This document shows, piece by piece, positions 15,308 through 18,606 of a DNA stretch of 32,777 nt. The notes beneath the pieces are model-generated. The model ran no database searches. It saw only the letters and a list, made by a program, of their open reading frames with translations, and had not been told where the DNA came from. The translations under genes and the position numbers were made by a program. The stretch lies in assembly GCA_035656635.1 (NCBI GenBank), contig DASRSD010000158.1, positions 1 through 32,777 of the forward strand, read 5' to 3'. The DNA comes from Pirellulales bacterium. Lineage in GTDB: Bacteria > Planctomycetota > Planctomycetia > Pirellulales > JADZDJ01. Position 1 is the first letter of the stretch. Each line of letters begins with the position of its first letter.

Positions 15308-16597
15308 CTAATTCGCTCCAATCCGCTCGACGATTAGCAGCGAGGGAGAAATCGGCTGCTCGGAAACGGTGATCGCCTCGGTCACCATTTTTTTAGCCGT
15401 CTCGGCTTTGGCGGGCGGGGCGAAGAGGCGCACTAGCGGTTGCCCCTTTTCGATTTTGTCTCCCAGGCGAACCAGCATTTCCAGGCCAGTGGAAAAATCG
15501 AGCTTGTCGCCCAGCTTTTGCCGGCCGCCCCCAAGTTCGATAATCGCAAAGCCAAGCTGCTCGACGTTCATGGTGGCAATGCAACCGGCACGGGAAGCAG
15601 TGACTTCGGAAGCCGGGGCGATCGGGCGTTTGGCATCGAGATTGCCGCCTTGGGCTGCGACCATTTCGCGGAATTTTTCCAGGGCTTTGCCGGAGCGGAT
15701 CAATTCCAGCAAGCGATTGCCGGCGGCGGTGGGCGATTGTTCCAGCCCGGTCGAAACCAGCAGCTCCGCGGACAGCGCAATGCACAGCCCGAGCAAATCG
15801 TTGGGGCCTTTCCCTTGCAGCGTGGCCACGCTTTCGTCCACTTCCACGGCGTTGCCCGCCATGCGGCCATGCGGCTGATTCATGTCGGTCAGCAGGGCCG
15901 TGGTGCGTACGTTCATTCGCTCACCGGTGGCCACCATGGCCTGAGCGAGCGCGCGGGCATCTTCTTGTTTTCGCATGAACGCGCCGCTTCCCCATTTCAC
16001 GTCGAGAACCAAGGCGTTCAATCCCTCGGCCATTTTTTTGCTCATGATGCTGGCGCAGATGAGCGGGATGCTGGGCACGGTACCGCTGACATCGCGCAGG
16101 GCGTACAGTTTTTTGTCGGCTGGCACCAGATCGGCGGTGGCGCCGGTAATGACGCAGCCGACTTTTTCCACAACCTGGTGAATCTCTTTTTCGTTCAAAT
16201 TAGTGCGGAAGCCGGGGATCGATTCCAGCTTGTCGAGCGTGCCGCCGGTAGCCCCCAGTCCGCGGCCGGAAATCATCGGCACTTTCAGGCCGCAACAGGC
16301 CAGCAGCGGCGCGATGACGAGCGAAGTTTTATCGCCAATGCCACCGGTGGAATGCTTATCGACCAGCGTGCCAAAGCCTGCCGGCCACTGTAATGTGGCG
16401 CCGGAGCGAAGCATCACGTCGACCAGGGCGGCCGTTTCCGCTGGATCCATGCCGCGGAAAAAAATGGCCATGGCCAGGGCCGACATTTGATATTCCGGCA
16501 CTTCGCCGCGAACGAAGCCCCCCATGAATTCAGCAATTTCGTCGGTCGAAAGCGCATGGCCGTCGCGCTTTTTCATGATCACGGCGACAGGATTCAT
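15308..16597 (-). CDS. deoA: Pyrimidine-nucleoside phosphorylase / thymidine phosphorylase
   Basis: Phosphorolysis of thymidine, deoxyuridine or uridine to base and (deoxy)ribose-1-phosphate. The 429-residue length fits the homodimeric NP-II family. The N-terminal helical region begins MNPVAVIMKKRDGHALSTDEI. The phosphate-binding and signature region reads DKHSTGGIGDKTSLVIAPLLA followed by SGRGLGATGGTLDKLESIPGF. A C-terminal domain includes KLDFSTGLEMLVRLGDKI. deoA (thymidine phosphorylase) and pdp (broad pyrimidine specificity) are hard to separate by sequence, so the symbol is provisional. The start ATG 16595-16597 overlaps the punA stop (ATGA) and has GAGG upstream inside punA, showing translational coupling. 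It is the last gene of the deo-type operon. Confidence 0.95.
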   Translation of the reverse strand: MNPVAVIMKKRDGHALSTDEIAEFMGGFVRGEVPEYQMSALAMAIFFRGMDPAETAALVDVMLRSGATLQWPAGFGTLVDKHSTGGIGDKTSLVIAPLLACCGLKVPMISGRGLGATGGTLDKLESIPGFRTNLNEKEIHQVVEKVGCVITGATADLVPADKKLYALRDVSGTVPSIPLICASIMSKKMAEGLNALVLDVKWGSGAFMRKQEDARALAQAMVATGERMNVRTTALLTDMNQPHGRMAGNAVEVDESVATLQGKGPNDLLGLCIALSAELLVSTGLEQSPTAAGNRLLELIRSGKALEKFREMVAAQGGNLDAKRPIAPASEVTASRAGCIATMNVEQLGFAIIELGGGRQKLGDKLDFSTGLEMLVRLGDKIEKGQPLVRLFAPPAKAETAKKMVTEAITVSEQPISPSLLIVERIGAN

Positions 16598-17430
16598 GAT
16601 TTTGCCTCTTGCTCCAACACGCCCAGCACGATGGTGCGCACCTTGTGTTCGGCGGCGGCGCCAATGGCGACCACTTCCTCGCCGGTGGTTGGCTTGGGAT
16701 TGGGATCGTCGGGCCGGCACTCGTTGGTCACCGTCGAAAGCGCCAGCACGCGCAAGCCAGCATGAACGGCCACAATGACTTCAGGCACGGTCGACATGCC
16801 CACCACGTCGCCGCCGATTTTACGCACGAAGCGCTGCTCGGCCCGGGTTTCGTAATTCGGCCCGGAGACGGCCGCATACGTGCCACAATGGGCCACAAAA
16901 TTCGATTTCCGCGAGATTTCCAGCGCACGGCTGATCAGATCACGGTCGTAGGGCTGGCTCATGTCGGGAAAGCGCGGGCCGAGCGAATCTTCGTTGATGC
17001 CGATCAGCGGATTGCCCAACATCAGGTTGATGTGATCTTCCATCACCATTACATCACCGGAGCGATAGAGCGGGTTCAATCCGCCGCAGGCGTTGGAGAC
17101 AATCAGCAGGTTGATGCCCAAGGCCTTCATCACGCGCACCGGCAGCGTGATTTTCCACATGGGATAACCTTCGTAAAAATGAAATCGGCCTTGCATGGCC
17201 ACTACCGGCAGCCCGGCGAGCGTGCCGCACACCAGTTGCCCTTTGTGGCCGATGGCGGTGGACACAGGAAAGTGTGGGATTTCTTTGTACGAAATGTTCG
17301 TGGGCGATTCGATGGAAGCGGCCAGATTTCCCAGTCCCGTGCCAAGGATAATGCCCGCTCGGGGTGTTTGCGGCCAGCGAGCGCGAATGAACGCAGCGGC
17401 GTCGGCGATTTTGGGAAGTTGGTGGAGCAT
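16594..17430 (-). CDS. punA: Purine-nucleoside phosphorylase (trimeric class)
   Basis: Phosphorolysis of purine (deoxy)nucleosides, mainly guanosine and inosine types. The 278-residue length and motifs fit the trimeric NP-II-type PNP: GIILGTGLGN (phosphate loop), GHKGQLVCG, MQGRFHFYEGY, VSNACGGLN, DHINLM, SGPNYETRAE, GMSTVPEVI, and TNECRPDDP where E. coli-type hexameric PNPs differ. The start ATG 17428-17430 has no Shine-Dalgarno, because the bases immediately upstream belong to the repeat arm of an inserted element. It overlaps the following phosphorylase by 4 bp. It is placed with deoC upstream, apart from the inserted four-helix-bundle unit. Confidence 0.95.
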   Translation of the reverse strand: MLHQLPKIADAAAFIRARWPQTPRAGIILGTGLGNLAASIESPTNISYKEIPHFPVSTAIGHKGQLVCGTLAGLPVVAMQGRFHFYEGYPMWKITLPVRVMKALGINLLIVSNACGGLNPLYRSGDVMVMEDHINLMLGNPLIGINEDSLGPRFPDMSQPYDRDLISRALEISRKSNFVAHCGTYAAVSGPNYETRAEQRFVRKIGGDVVGMSTVPEVIVAVHAGLRVLALSTVTNECRPDDPNPKPTTGEEVVAIGAAAEHKVRTIVLGVLEQEAKS

Positions 17431-17438
17431 AAGGAAAT

Positions 17439-17466
17439 GCAGAAAGCAGAAGGCAGAAGGCAGAAA
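17439..17466. repeat. Left heptamer array of the four-helix-bundle unit
   Basis: Four 7-bp units read on the plus strand: GCAGAAA, GCAGAAG, GCAGAAG, GCAGAAA. The array begins 8 bp from the punA start codon. It is inverted relative to the array at 17864-17891, so the two form terminal inverted repeats around the gene between them. Confidence 0.85.
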
Positions 17467-17486
17467 CAGTTGGAGAACTGGTTTGA

Positions 17487-17846
17487 CTACTCCTCTTTTG
17501 CGTTTTTAATGATGGTGACAAAAATTGCGATTAACTCTTCGGCTTCCGCTCTCAGCGATACCAACCGATCGGGCGTAATAATTTCTCCGTCTTGCAACAA
17601 TTCAAACCAGTACGAAACTTCTTCCAATTCCATCAATGCAATGTTTACTTTAGCAGCGAATTCATGACCGCTACGTGCTCTCGTCGCTTCCCTAAAATTT
17701 GCGCCGACTCCCATGCCCGCGCGAAGCAATTGATCGGCGATCCGTTGTCCTTCAAGCGTTTTAGGCAAAGCCCGAGCAAGCCGCAAGATACGCAGAGCAA
17801 ATTCTTTTGTTCGCAGTTTTAGATCTGCCCAGCGCTCATTTGGCAT
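17487..17846 (-). CDS. Four-helix-bundle protein (23S rRNA IVP / Avd-like family)
   Basis: 119 residues, nearly all helical. It carries the family pattern LKLRTKEFALRILRLARALPK, then ADQLLRAGMGVGANFREATRARS, then HEFAAKVNIALMELEEVSYWFELL, ending in a final helix LVSLRAEAEELIAIFVTIIKNAKEE. This is the family known from intervening sequences of 23S rRNA genes and, as Avd, from diversity-generating retroelements. Here no rRNA, reverse transcriptase or variable repeat is nearby. I choose ATG 17844-17846 (MPNERWADL): the open frame extends further, but the extra codons translate the heptamer array (RRQKAEGRLE) and the deoC end. No ribosome-binding site is clear. The function is unknown; other members form pentameric nucleic-acid-binding barrels. 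Confidence 0.85.
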   Translation of the reverse strand: MPNERWADLKLRTKEFALRILRLARALPKTLEGQRIADQLLRAGMGVGANFREATRARSGHEFAAKVNIALMELEEVSYWFELLQDGEIITPDRLVSLRAEAEELIAIFVTIIKNAKEE

Positions 17847-17863
17847 TTCAACAGTTCTTTCTA

Positions 17864-17891
17864 ATCTGCCTTCTGCTTTCTGCCTTCTGCC
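17864..17891. repeat. Right heptamer array of the four-helix-bundle unit
   Basis: Units on the plus strand: ATCTGCC, TTCTGCT, TTCTGCC, TTCTGCC, the reverse complement of the GCAGAAG-type units at 17439-17466. The array ends 4 bp before the last base of the deoC stop codon. Confidence 0.85.
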
Positions 17892-17895
17892 TTGG

Positions 17896-18606
17896 TTAGT
17901 ATCCGGCGCCGGTCGATTTTCCGCCGCCGATGATTGGTTCCGGTGCGCTGGTGCCAAGGCGCGTGCAGCCCAGTTCCTGCATTTTGAGCGCTTCAGCCTG
18001 CGTGCGCACGCCGCCGGCCGCTTTAATGCCCACTTGCTTTGGCGAGTGCTTCCGCATCAAGGCCACATCTTTTTCCGTGGCGCCTTTGTAGTTGTAATCG
18101 CCGCTGGCTTGCTTGACGAATCCGAAGCCGGTGGAAGTTTTCACGTAATCGACTCCCAGCTTGCCGCAGATTTCGCAGAGCTTGATTTTCCACTCGTCCT
18201 TGGTGAGATAATCATTCTCGAAAATCACTTTCAAAACGGCTTTATGCTGCCGGGCTACGTCGAGGACAGCTTTGACGTCGCGCTCCACAAAATCCCAATC
18301 TTCGCTCATGACTTTGCCGATGTTCACAACCATGTCGAGCTCGGTGGCGCCGTGCTCGCAGGCCAGCTTGGCTTCGGCGGCCTTGATTTCCGGAGCGTTG
18401 CTGCCGTGTGGAAAGCCAATGACCGTGCCCACCGCCACGCCAGAACCACGCAGGCGGTCGGCAGCCAGCTTCACGGCGTACGGTTTAATGCACACGCTGG
18501 CCACACTTAATTGCTTGGCCTTTTCGCAGCCTGCGTGCAGTTCCTTATCGGTCAGCGTGGGATGCAACAGGGCTAGATCGATCAATTTGGCAAGATCAGC
18601 AGACAT
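17896..18606 (-). CDS. deoC: Deoxyribose-phosphate aldolase
   Basis: Cleaves 2-deoxy-D-ribose-5-phosphate into acetaldehyde and glyceraldehyde-3-phosphate, the last step of deoxynucleoside breakdown. 236 residues, a TIM barrel. The Schiff-base lysine is K156 in GVDYVKTSTGF. The second catalytic lysine is K195 (VGIKAAGGVRT), and the conserved acid is D91 in TELDMVVNIG. IGFPHGSN is at 63-70. The start is ATG 18604-18606 (MSADLAKLID); the longer frame adds 22 residues with no family match. It is the first gene of the minus-strand operon. Its stop is followed within 5 bp by the repeat arm of the inserted unit, so translational coupling to punA has been interrupted. Confidence 0.96.
   Translation of the reverse strand: MSADLAKLIDLALLHPTLTDKELHAGCEKAKQLSVASVCIKPYAVKLAADRLRGSGVAVGTVIGFPHGSNAPEIKAAEAKLACEHGATELDMVVNIGKVMSEDWDFVERDVKAVLDVARQHKAVLKVIFENDYLTKDEWKIKLCEICGKLGVDYVKTSTGFGFVKQASGDYNYKGATEKDVALMRKHSPKQVGIKAAGGVRTQAEALKMQELGCTRLGTSAPEPIIGGGKSTGAGY

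Follow-up and report, generated by a model that had tools for sequence, protein, structure and literature searches.

The STRR heptanucleotides of cyanobacteria are intergenic tandem heptamers, and REPINs are moved by RAYT transposases. Intervening sequences (IVSs) are found as curiosities in certain rRNA genes, their origin being unclear and the function of their protein unknown; in Coxiella burnetii the 23S rRNA IVS, which carries an S23p ORF, is 428-444 nt long and has a 28-bp terminal stem and tandem GACAGAT heptamers upstream of the ORF, RNase III cleavage occurring at the first repeat, and the S23 protein of Xanthomonas is a pentamer (PMC4990558). The GGGAATC repeats of Xanthomonas form 70 and 75 convergent pairs in two genomes, and the available part of that paper names no gene family with them and contains neither the term S23 nor the term four helix (PMC4692102). 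The TAACTGA repeats of Beggiatoaceae are dispersed tandem heptamers, almost always in direct orientation and inverted in a single case (PMC4679880), and the heptanucleotide sites of Geobacter are dispersed and partly paired on opposite strands (PMC2700814); the authors of both studies interpreted them as potential regulatory sites.

The window, which is the whole stretch of 32,777 nucleotides that was analysed, contains between deoC and punA a unit composed of inverted GGCAGAA-type heptamer arrays flanking the gene of a four-helix-bundle protein (Table 1). We consider it probable, with good confidence, that this unit represents one copy of an IVS-type mobile element, widespread in bacteria, in which an S23-family gene lies between inverted 7-bp (or 8-bp) arrays and which occupies the gap between co-directional genes right after the stop codon of the upstream one.

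Table 1. Features of the deoC-punA region in the window
Feature	Position	Strand	Basis or remark
Whole element, 458 bp	17436..17893	(-), orientation as deoC and punA	Outer limits of the inverted arms; element-free 3-bp gap in G036; orthologous element in G001
5' arm, four purine-rich heptamers AAGGCAG AAGGCAG AAAGCAG AAGGCAG A	17865..17893	(-)	Begins 2 bp past the deoC stop codon
3' arm, complementary C-rich heptamers TTTCTGCCTTCTGCCTTCTGCTTTCTGCATT	17436..17466	(-)	Ends 5 bp ahead of the punA start codon
Four-helix-bundle gene, S23/23S_rRNA_IVP family, 119 aa	17487..17846	(-)	PF05635, TIGR02436, structure model, fold matches
deoC, upstream host gene	17896..18606	(-)	Name from the initial annotation; 236-aa query used in relatives
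punA, downstream host gene	16594..17430	(-)	ORF; name from the initial annotation

The initial annotation had described a unit of about 453 bp that fills the gap, ends in inverted heptamers and surrounds an intact four-helix-bundle gene. The unit is present, with a measured length of 458 bp, and the gene is intact, its product matching the Pfam family 23S_rRNA_IVP with 68.8 bits (cut-off 33.8) and the NCBIfam model TIGR02436 with 86.5 bits. Each array contains about four 7-bp units, and the inverted arms are 90% complementary over 29 nt with a 17-nt core that is 100% complementary. The gene was also rightly taken to be AT-richer than its neighbours, the GC content, measured over 200 bases at a time, being 43-51% across the unit and mostly 51-65% on both flanks. 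The RNA of the element was predicted to fold with -151.9 kcal/mol (z -2.8), and 0 of 100 shuffles were equally good. The deoC stop codon TAA occupies positions 17896-17898 and the punA ATG positions 17428-17430; excision would leave 7 bp between the two genes and not about 12 bp as was first estimated. The proposal that the insertion stripped punA of its Shine-Dalgarno sequence is unsupported, since by eye none is present before punA in the window or in the element-free relative G036, and the claim that translational coupling was broken by the insertion is likewise unsupported.

In the genome from which the window was taken (G000), three S23-family genes were found, all of them bracketed by inverted arrays, which together with the existence of element-free sites supports the earlier suggestion of a small element that uses heptamer arrays as its ends. 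The expectation that other copies would be bracketed by inverted heptamers held, but the heptamer was not the same, the three copies having three different ones. An empty deoC-punA site, anticipated in relatives, was found in other families of the order (in G036 punA comes directly after deoC with a gap of 3 bp, and in G020 it is close behind) but not in the congener G001, which has an orthologous element at this site with the S23 gene broken by a frameshift. An 18-mer array pattern, with up to two mismatches allowed, gave 87 matches in G000 and 1 for the reversed control, and gene-less arrays are dispersed over about 30 sites of this genome. GCAGAAG arrays gave 46 matches in G000 and 69 in G001, and zero in 34 of the 40 genomes. 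Many arrays are single-armed and mixed arrays also occur; moreover, some gene-less paired arrays were seen by eye near gene ends at other sites.

Matching inverted arms were found for 159 of 201 entries of S23-family genes (one gene was entered twice). The period was 7 bp in 116 and 8 bp in 11 of the armed loci (127 clearly periodic), and other periods from 4 to 12 bp were represented by 0 or 1 locus each. Because 42 of the 201 genes were without detected arms and 32 of the 159 armed loci without a strict period, part of this set may consist of genes that have settled in the host or of copies in decay. The heptamer unit varies among elements, whereas within any one element both arms agree, and such arms were seen in cyanobacteria as well. 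In G000 and its relatives 57 of 69 loci were bracketed; among 828 mismatched arm pairs the rate was 1.6%, and of 67 distal windows none was positive. The proportion was 56 of 80 in named genomes (2.2% of 640 null pairs), these loci, some of them orthologous copies, being the best 80 of at least 591 stretches by similarity to an S23-type query, and phylum frequencies are withheld for this reason. Window-type loci were bracketed in 25 of 29 cases (null, 11% of 290) and IMG/VR loci in 13 of 19, or 11 of 14 once near-duplicates were collapsed. As controls, arms were detected at 1 of 23 deoC loci and at 0 of 100 random placements. No rRNA was found at 20 further loci of the 201, mostly those with low arm scores. 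Phage records gave no match to one S23-type query, yet 19 IMG/VR contigs carry an S23-family gene; a scan of a genome-contig collection with a single protein gave no match.

Presence and absence of the element at identical sites were observed among congeneric genomes and among cyanobacterial plasmids that are 90-94% identical. Such contrasts were found between the plasmids of Calothrix and those of Tolypothrix, Aulosira and N. carneum, between Nostoc C052 and pNe_5 on the one side and C057 on the other, and between G001 and G000 at several sites. Since remnant units were found at some G000 sites lacking an element, some of the empty sites may be losses. One gap was occupied by different elements in different genera. 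In G160 similar copies were found at unrelated sites (93% over 298 bp and 81% over 424 bp), the homology being confined to the element within the approximately 2.7 kb compared. No target-site duplication was recognised by eye at the junctions, where the homologues are too divergent. At the level of sequence comparison it was found that the arrays form the ends of the element, that the latter is present or absent at fixed sites in related DNA, that similar copies lie at unrelated sites and that gene-less derivatives have the same arms; the element appears to be mobile.

It could be argued instead that there is no intrinsic mobility, the arrays growing by slippage at cistron junctions and the S23 genes being acquired by horizontal transfer of the usual kind and by array-to-array recombination. 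Congeners differ in the type of array at the same site (L044, L051), and mixed and single-armed arrays would also fit this explanation, which we nevertheless regard as unlikely: slippage does not produce inverted arms of the same unit on both sides of a single gene family, as seen at 159 of 201 loci, with control genes lacking them, and intra-genome homology limited to the element requires a copying step. Somewhat less probable still is the movement of the arrays by a host Y1 (HUH) transposase, as RAYT moves REPINs, with the S23 gene as a passenger. Short extragenic repeats that form inverted pairs, number in the tens and occur mainly in one genus are REPIN-like, and Y1_Tnp is present in 32 of 40 genomes; it is, however, distributed with no association to the S23 gene (22 of 27 genomes that have it, 10 of 13 that lack it), the G007 genome (one contig, completeness 95) has four S23-gene matches and zero Y1, and no second gene is present inside the window element according to the ORF list of the window.

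The predicted structure of the window protein (pLDDT 94.9) consists of four helices, and in the fold search it matched 2rld and 2gsc best, then Avd (4dwl, E 0.055) and also the DGR reverse-transcriptase complexes 8ub7, 8ub8, 8ubb and 8ube (E 0.11-0.46). This likeness of fold would suit a retroelement acting in trans, with an Avd-like protein, a reverse transcriptase encoded elsewhere and movement via cDNA; three S23-type members match the NCBIfam Avd model, far under the cut-off, and an RNA intermediate would be consistent with elements that run in the direction of the host gene. We judge such a retroelement improbable, since the window protein has no match to the Avd model at E <= 0.001 and RVT_1, present in 12 of the 27 genomes that have the S23 gene and in 7 of the 13 that lack it, has no association with the gene among the 40 genomes, being absent from G000, G001, G010 and G021, which have 3, 9, 7 and 8 gene matches, respectively. 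The early observation that rRNA and reverse transcriptase are lacking holds for the window, where the Rfam scan returned no family at gathering score, and, as regards reverse transcriptase, for the genome, with 0 matches to RVT_1 in an assembly 95.6% complete.

Element ends abutted a stop codon in 99 of 275 cases, whereas five shifted controls gave 4-11 of 275, and of 135 elements 80 lay behind a stop codon in the sense orientation of the upstream gene, 18 in the antisense orientation and 10 in both. Abutment to the start codon (77 of 132, 53 in the shifted control) was discarded as a signal, being uninformative with gene ends that are ORF-based. In the arms of 115 elements 147 G-U and 159 A-C mispairs were counted; as the two are equally common, there is no sign of a sense-strand pairing constraint on the arms at the RNA level, and this candidate was rejected. 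A host regulatory module, with the inverted arrays as intercistronic hairpins tuning operon expression and the protein as their regulator, would agree with the location between co-directional genes, the stable hairpin and the gene-less pairs near gene ends, but is very improbable given that many sites differ between congeners, that different elements share one gap across genera and that the arms are without RNA-strand preference.

The distance between heptamer units was found to correlate with that between proteins (Mantel r 0.385; maximum of 500 permutations 0.089); in the S23-type class alone the correlation was not significant (r 0.118, permutation maximum 0.175). For the alignment of units, made on 87 elements, mostly S23-type and some not, the null was run with 30 restarts and the real data with 200. 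The core AG[GT] occurs in 64 of 80 S23-type units and 7 of 48 window-type units, and the core GA[AT]T in 5 of 80 and 29 of 48, respectively, both cores having been chosen on the very elements counted. The unit of the window, AAGGCAG, has the S23-type AG[GT] and lacks GA[AT]T, and is an exception to the subfamily rule. The type of unit tracks the protein subfamily broadly, the window copy excepted, and shared descent alone could explain the correlation. In 21 element pairs compared for concerted change of both arms, both within-element scores were above both between-element scores in five (L057/L067, L215/L230, L215/L225, L076/L081, L212/L223), and most of the remaining pairs fail this pattern, some of them, such as L103/L105 and L217/L228, including an element without good arms; concerted renewal of both arms may be taken as a lead only. 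A rule of terminal AG dinucleotides at S23-type ends (26 of 92, with an AG share of 13% arm-wide) was rejected as too weak.

If the window unit is a copy of an IVS-type mobile element, as preferred here, its S23 gene would be expressed through read-through from the host operon, and such expression would select orientation and cistron junctions. By analogy with the published Coxiella rRNA IVS, the arms may pair in the transcript and be cut there by RNase III, so that rRNA or a junction of two cistrons would tolerate the insertion. The S23 protein may bind its own arrays and, with host enzymes, aid the spread of the element and of gene-less arrays. Since the Coxiella 23S IVS has the same plan, heptamers included, the rRNA IVSs look like the branch of an operon-gap element family that has lodged in rRNA. 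It is tempting to go further and to regard the S23 elements as forming their own class of mobile DNA, one in which neither a transposase nor a reverse transcriptase can be recognised. The four-helix protein would then recognise a heptamer typical of its subfamily and would carry arrays, both full and gene-less, to the cistron junctions that follow stop codons; the arms would be renewed together and the units change in concert, and ribosomal IVSs and much of the dispersed bacterial heptamers would be products of this class. This wider proposal is tentative, possible rather than probable, and is weakened because the window unit is without the core typical of its protein subfamily.

An element family of this kind, spanning many phyla and with several copies per genome in some, would join two puzzles, the rRNA IVSs and the unexplained dispersed heptamer repeats. 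The role of the S23 protein and the spread of IVSs become testable, as the putative substrate flanks each gene, and many genes annotated as "four helix bundle protein" (at least 591 stretches in one scan) would be re-labelled as parts of mobile elements.

Compared with REPIN/RAYT, the likeness lies in a gene-bearing copy accompanied by many short repeats, some of them inverted pairs, mostly in one lineage; the window element differs in being without a Y1 transposase, in its four-helix-bundle protein and in its tandem-heptamer units. With the Avd of DGRs the window protein shares the four-helix fold, but no reverse transcriptase was found in its own genome and the protein has no Avd-model match. 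The STRR and the Xanthomonas GGGAATC repeats are likewise intergenic tandem heptamers; the heptamers analysed here form the arms of S23 elements. The Beggiatoaceae and Geobacter repeats share dispersed tandem heptamers with the S23-element arrays. The rRNA IVS, as far as its description extends, is alike in protein family by name, in a length similar to the 458 bp found here, in terminal inverted repeats and in heptamers beside the ORF; it is lodged in rRNA, whereas the window element lies between protein genes, and the arrays were checked here on both sides at 201 loci.

The unit that the initial annotation placed between deoC and punA was confirmed when its coordinates and layout were rechecked (see the table below). 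Read in the direction of the genes, the deoC stop codon is followed by 2 bp, four purine-rich heptamers, 18 bp, a gene of 119 codons plus its stop codon, 20 bp, the complementary heptamers and 5 bp before the punA start codon. The encoded protein was assigned to 23S_rRNA_IVP (Pfam) and to TIGR02436, 'four helix bundle protein' (NCBIfam), and its predicted structure consisted of four helices (pLDDT 94.9). The closest solved structures were 2rld and 2gsc of the S23 family, followed, at weak E-values of 0.055 to 0.46, by Avd (4dwl) and the reverse-transcriptase complexes of diversity-generating retroelements (DGR).

Features of the interval between deoC and punA in the window
Feature	Position	Strand	Remark
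deoC stop codon	17896-17898	minus	
Element	17436-17893	minus	occupies most of the 465 bases between the deoC stop and the punA start
punA start codon	17428-17430	minus	read with the genes

A family of elements outside rRNA that resemble the intervening sequences (IVS) of rRNA genes, with an S23-family gene between inverted arms, is a real and general feature. The gene was found in 27 of the 40 genomes searched, the source genome included. Of 72 loci fetched, L070, L075 and L079 were cut by contig ends and dropped, and the gene position was entered by hand for L096 and L120. Arms, counted at an inverted-arm score of at least 13, were present in 57 of the remaining 69 loci, compared with 1.6% of 828 pairs whose left and right sides came from different loci; of 67 distal windows none had them. 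The period was 7 bp in 45 of the 69, and each of the other lengths between 4 and 12 was seen in 0 to 3. Named genomes spanned Treponema, Planctomycetota, Chloroflexi, Cyanobacteria, Bacteroidota, Acidobacteria, Proteobacteria, Verrucomicrobiota, Clostridia and more. Among the best 80 of the 591 loci listed for them, 56 had arms, with a period of 7 bp in 46 and of 8 bp in 10; mismatched pairs reached 2.2% of 640. Units of 8 bp flanked the S23 genes at L180, L187, L182, L196, L225 and L230, several of these in Bacteroidota. Of 294 genomes of the phylum, 68 contained the closest relatives of the window protein, with arms in 25 of 29 loci; the mismatched-pair null, 11% of 290, was elevated because the arms of these loci resemble one another. 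Contigs of IMG/VR had arms in 13 of 19 loci (11 of 14 with near-duplicates collapsed). Among the controls, arms were present in 1 of 23 deoC loci (30 less two with this element and five cut ones) and in none of 100 random placements within own-genome loci. Over all sets, in which one element is entered twice (L258 = L298), 159 of 201 entries had arms, that is 104 of 137 of the S23-type class and 55 of 64 of the window-type class; on at least one arm 116 of the 159 passed the 7-bp period test and 11 the 8-bp test, and each remaining period between 4 and 12 was passed by at most one entry.

The source genome (G000; 4.9 Mb, 190 contigs) contains three S23-family genes, as found by a PF05635 search. 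The proposal that such genes are bracketed by the same inverted heptamers held in part: all three lie between inverted heptamer arrays, but the heptamer differs each time (GGCAGAA in the window, TAGAGAG-like at L001, TAGTGGC-like at L002). When two mismatches were tolerated, the GCAGAAG pattern gave 87 matches in this genome against one for the reversed pattern, spread over roughly 30 separate places. Twenty stretches with these arrays were fetched, some of which were gene-less inverted pairs spanning about 90-130 bp and others single arrays, some interspersed with other heptamers, e.g., GGGGAAT. At one mismatch there were 69 matches in the congener G001, 46 in G000, 11 in G006, 4 in G036 and a single one in each of G003 and G024, while the other 34 of the 40 genomes had no match; the GCAGAAG arrays are an amplification mainly within one genus. 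Contigs C120 and C156 of G000 start within such arrays, so that assembly apparently failed across the repeats and their true copy number may exceed the counts. When ten gene-less sites of G000 were compared with G001, arrays were present at L034, L041, L050 and L052, degenerate at L043, reduced to a remnant at L048 and absent at L045; L051 corresponded to an inverted pair of a different heptamer, L044 was mixed and L046 had no match in G001.

deoC was found in 30 of the 40 genomes, with punA beside it at seven of these loci. The empty junction anticipated in relatives was found in G036, as a 3-bp gap, but the congener also holds the element, its gene frameshifted, in a region of 85% mean column identity. 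G020 showed a short gap, three other loci with gaps of about 100 to 380 bp showed no match to the window's protein, and the same-family genome G002 had no punA beside deoC within the fetched stretch. The gap in G008 (L136:2190-2490) contained a different structure, present twice, around a GGGGAGAGG-type hairpin.

One gene pair is separated by 21 bp from stop to start in G000 (30 bp without homology) and by 525 bp with a window-type element in G001; the 21 bp resemble leftover units, and loss is therefore possible. The same gap in G024 and in a named Planctomycetaceae genome (L183, arm score 12, slightly below the threshold used) contained S23-type genes with other arms. Eight further elements were compared between the two congeners. 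The counterparts were plain gaps for L063 and L114, remnant arms for L121, a derivative that kept the heptamer but has no gene for L094, another inverted repeat, of GGAGACACAGAGGCACGGAGA type and likewise without a gene, for L001 (L354, on C10 of G001) and sequence without the element for L106 and L122 (about 0.9 kb of other sequence in the latter); L002 cannot be judged. In plasmids 1 and 2 of Calothrix brevissima an integrase gene is followed by an element with GGGTGTA arms and then by the next ORF; at this site the gap is 3 bp in the plasmids, 90-91% identical, of Tolypothrix PCC 7601, Aulosira laxa and Nostoc carneum. The element behind a traM-like gene in Nostoc C052 and N. edaphicum pNe_5 has GGGAACA arms. 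In two Nostoc C057 plasmids (94%) it is absent and its place is taken by about 50 bp, part of which is not in the occupied version, and the inverted array of ATCC 53789 shares the left end of the element but encloses no gene.

Copies also occurred at unrelated places. In G160 one pair of elements was 93% alike over 298 bp and a second pair 81% alike over 424 bp, with no further homology in the fetched surroundings, and G253 holds a copy 90% identical over 429 bp to one of them. S23 genes of different subfamilies adjoin homologous flanking genes in different genomes at L111, L113, L173 and L204 (a PAPS reductase domain next to both L113 and L204, and in L113 also a GTP_EFTU-domain gene on the opposite flank), possibly a second hot spot.

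The position relative to host genes was studied for 140 elements with an arm score of at least 15 (median 479 bp) and ORFs of at least 100 codons. Element ends lay within -12 to +6 of a stop codon in 99 of 275 cases, whereas five shifted controls gave 4 to 11 of 275. Of 135 elements, 80 had a sense stop at the 5' end, 18 had an antisense stop at the 3' end and 10 had both. The elements thus tend to follow the stop of the upstream gene and to read in its direction. Such a bias can come either from targeting or from selection favouring copies that are tolerated and expressed in the short gaps of operons. An S23 element of pNe_5 (L315), between two genes annotated as ribonucleotide reductase subunits, has the opposite orientation and is an exception to this rule.

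Alignment of the units of 87 seven-bp elements gave A-G-[G/T]-N-N-N-[T/C] (G 89%, A 75%) with an information of 3.42 bits, column-permuted data reaching at most 2.83; nine 8-bp elements followed a related pattern. By eye, the closest relatives of the window protein often had GATTNNN or GAATNNN units. Among 128 elements with 7-bp arrays, an AG[GT] core was present in 64 of 80 S23-type and 7 of 48 window-type units and a GA[AT]T core in 5 and 29, respectively, both patterns having been picked from the very elements counted. Array similarity correlated with protein identity over the 128 (r 0.385; permutation maximum 0.089) and within the window-type class (0.474; 0.197), and not significantly within the S23-type class (0.118). 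The upstream arm had more G than C in 107 of 115 elements and less in 6. At a site shared by two genomes of one genus (L057 and L067; 78% DNA identity over 3 kb), the units are of GGGATTC and GGGGTCA type, differing on both sides; the arms seem to change in concert. Since unit type is tied to protein subfamily, binding of the array by its S23 protein is the leading guess, with the caution that the window's own unit, AAGGCAG, contains AG[GT], lacks GA[AT]T and is an exception to the trend.

The transcript of the window element is predicted to fold into an arm-closed hairpin (-151.9 kcal/mol, z -2.8, none of 100 shuffles as good), and RNase III would cleave element-carrying mRNAs at the arms, at little cost to the operon. 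Arm mispairs in 115 elements were equally often G-U (147) and A-C (159), which argues against selection on the arms at the RNA level. Neither RVT_1 (12 of 27 genomes with the gene, 7 of 13 without) nor Y1_Tnp (22 of 27 and 10 of 13) was associated with the gene. The way in which the elements move may be of a new kind.

In the literature searched, from which subscription journals were largely missing, no link of S23 or four-helix-bundle genes to heptamer arrays outside rRNA was found; the parts of PMC4692102, PMC4679880 and PMC2700814 that were available describe dispersed heptamers without an S23 link. The Coxiella IVS, as far as the part of its published description that was available goes (PMC4990558), is alike in length, protein, stem and heptamers, and this likeness makes common descent with the present elements the natural reading.
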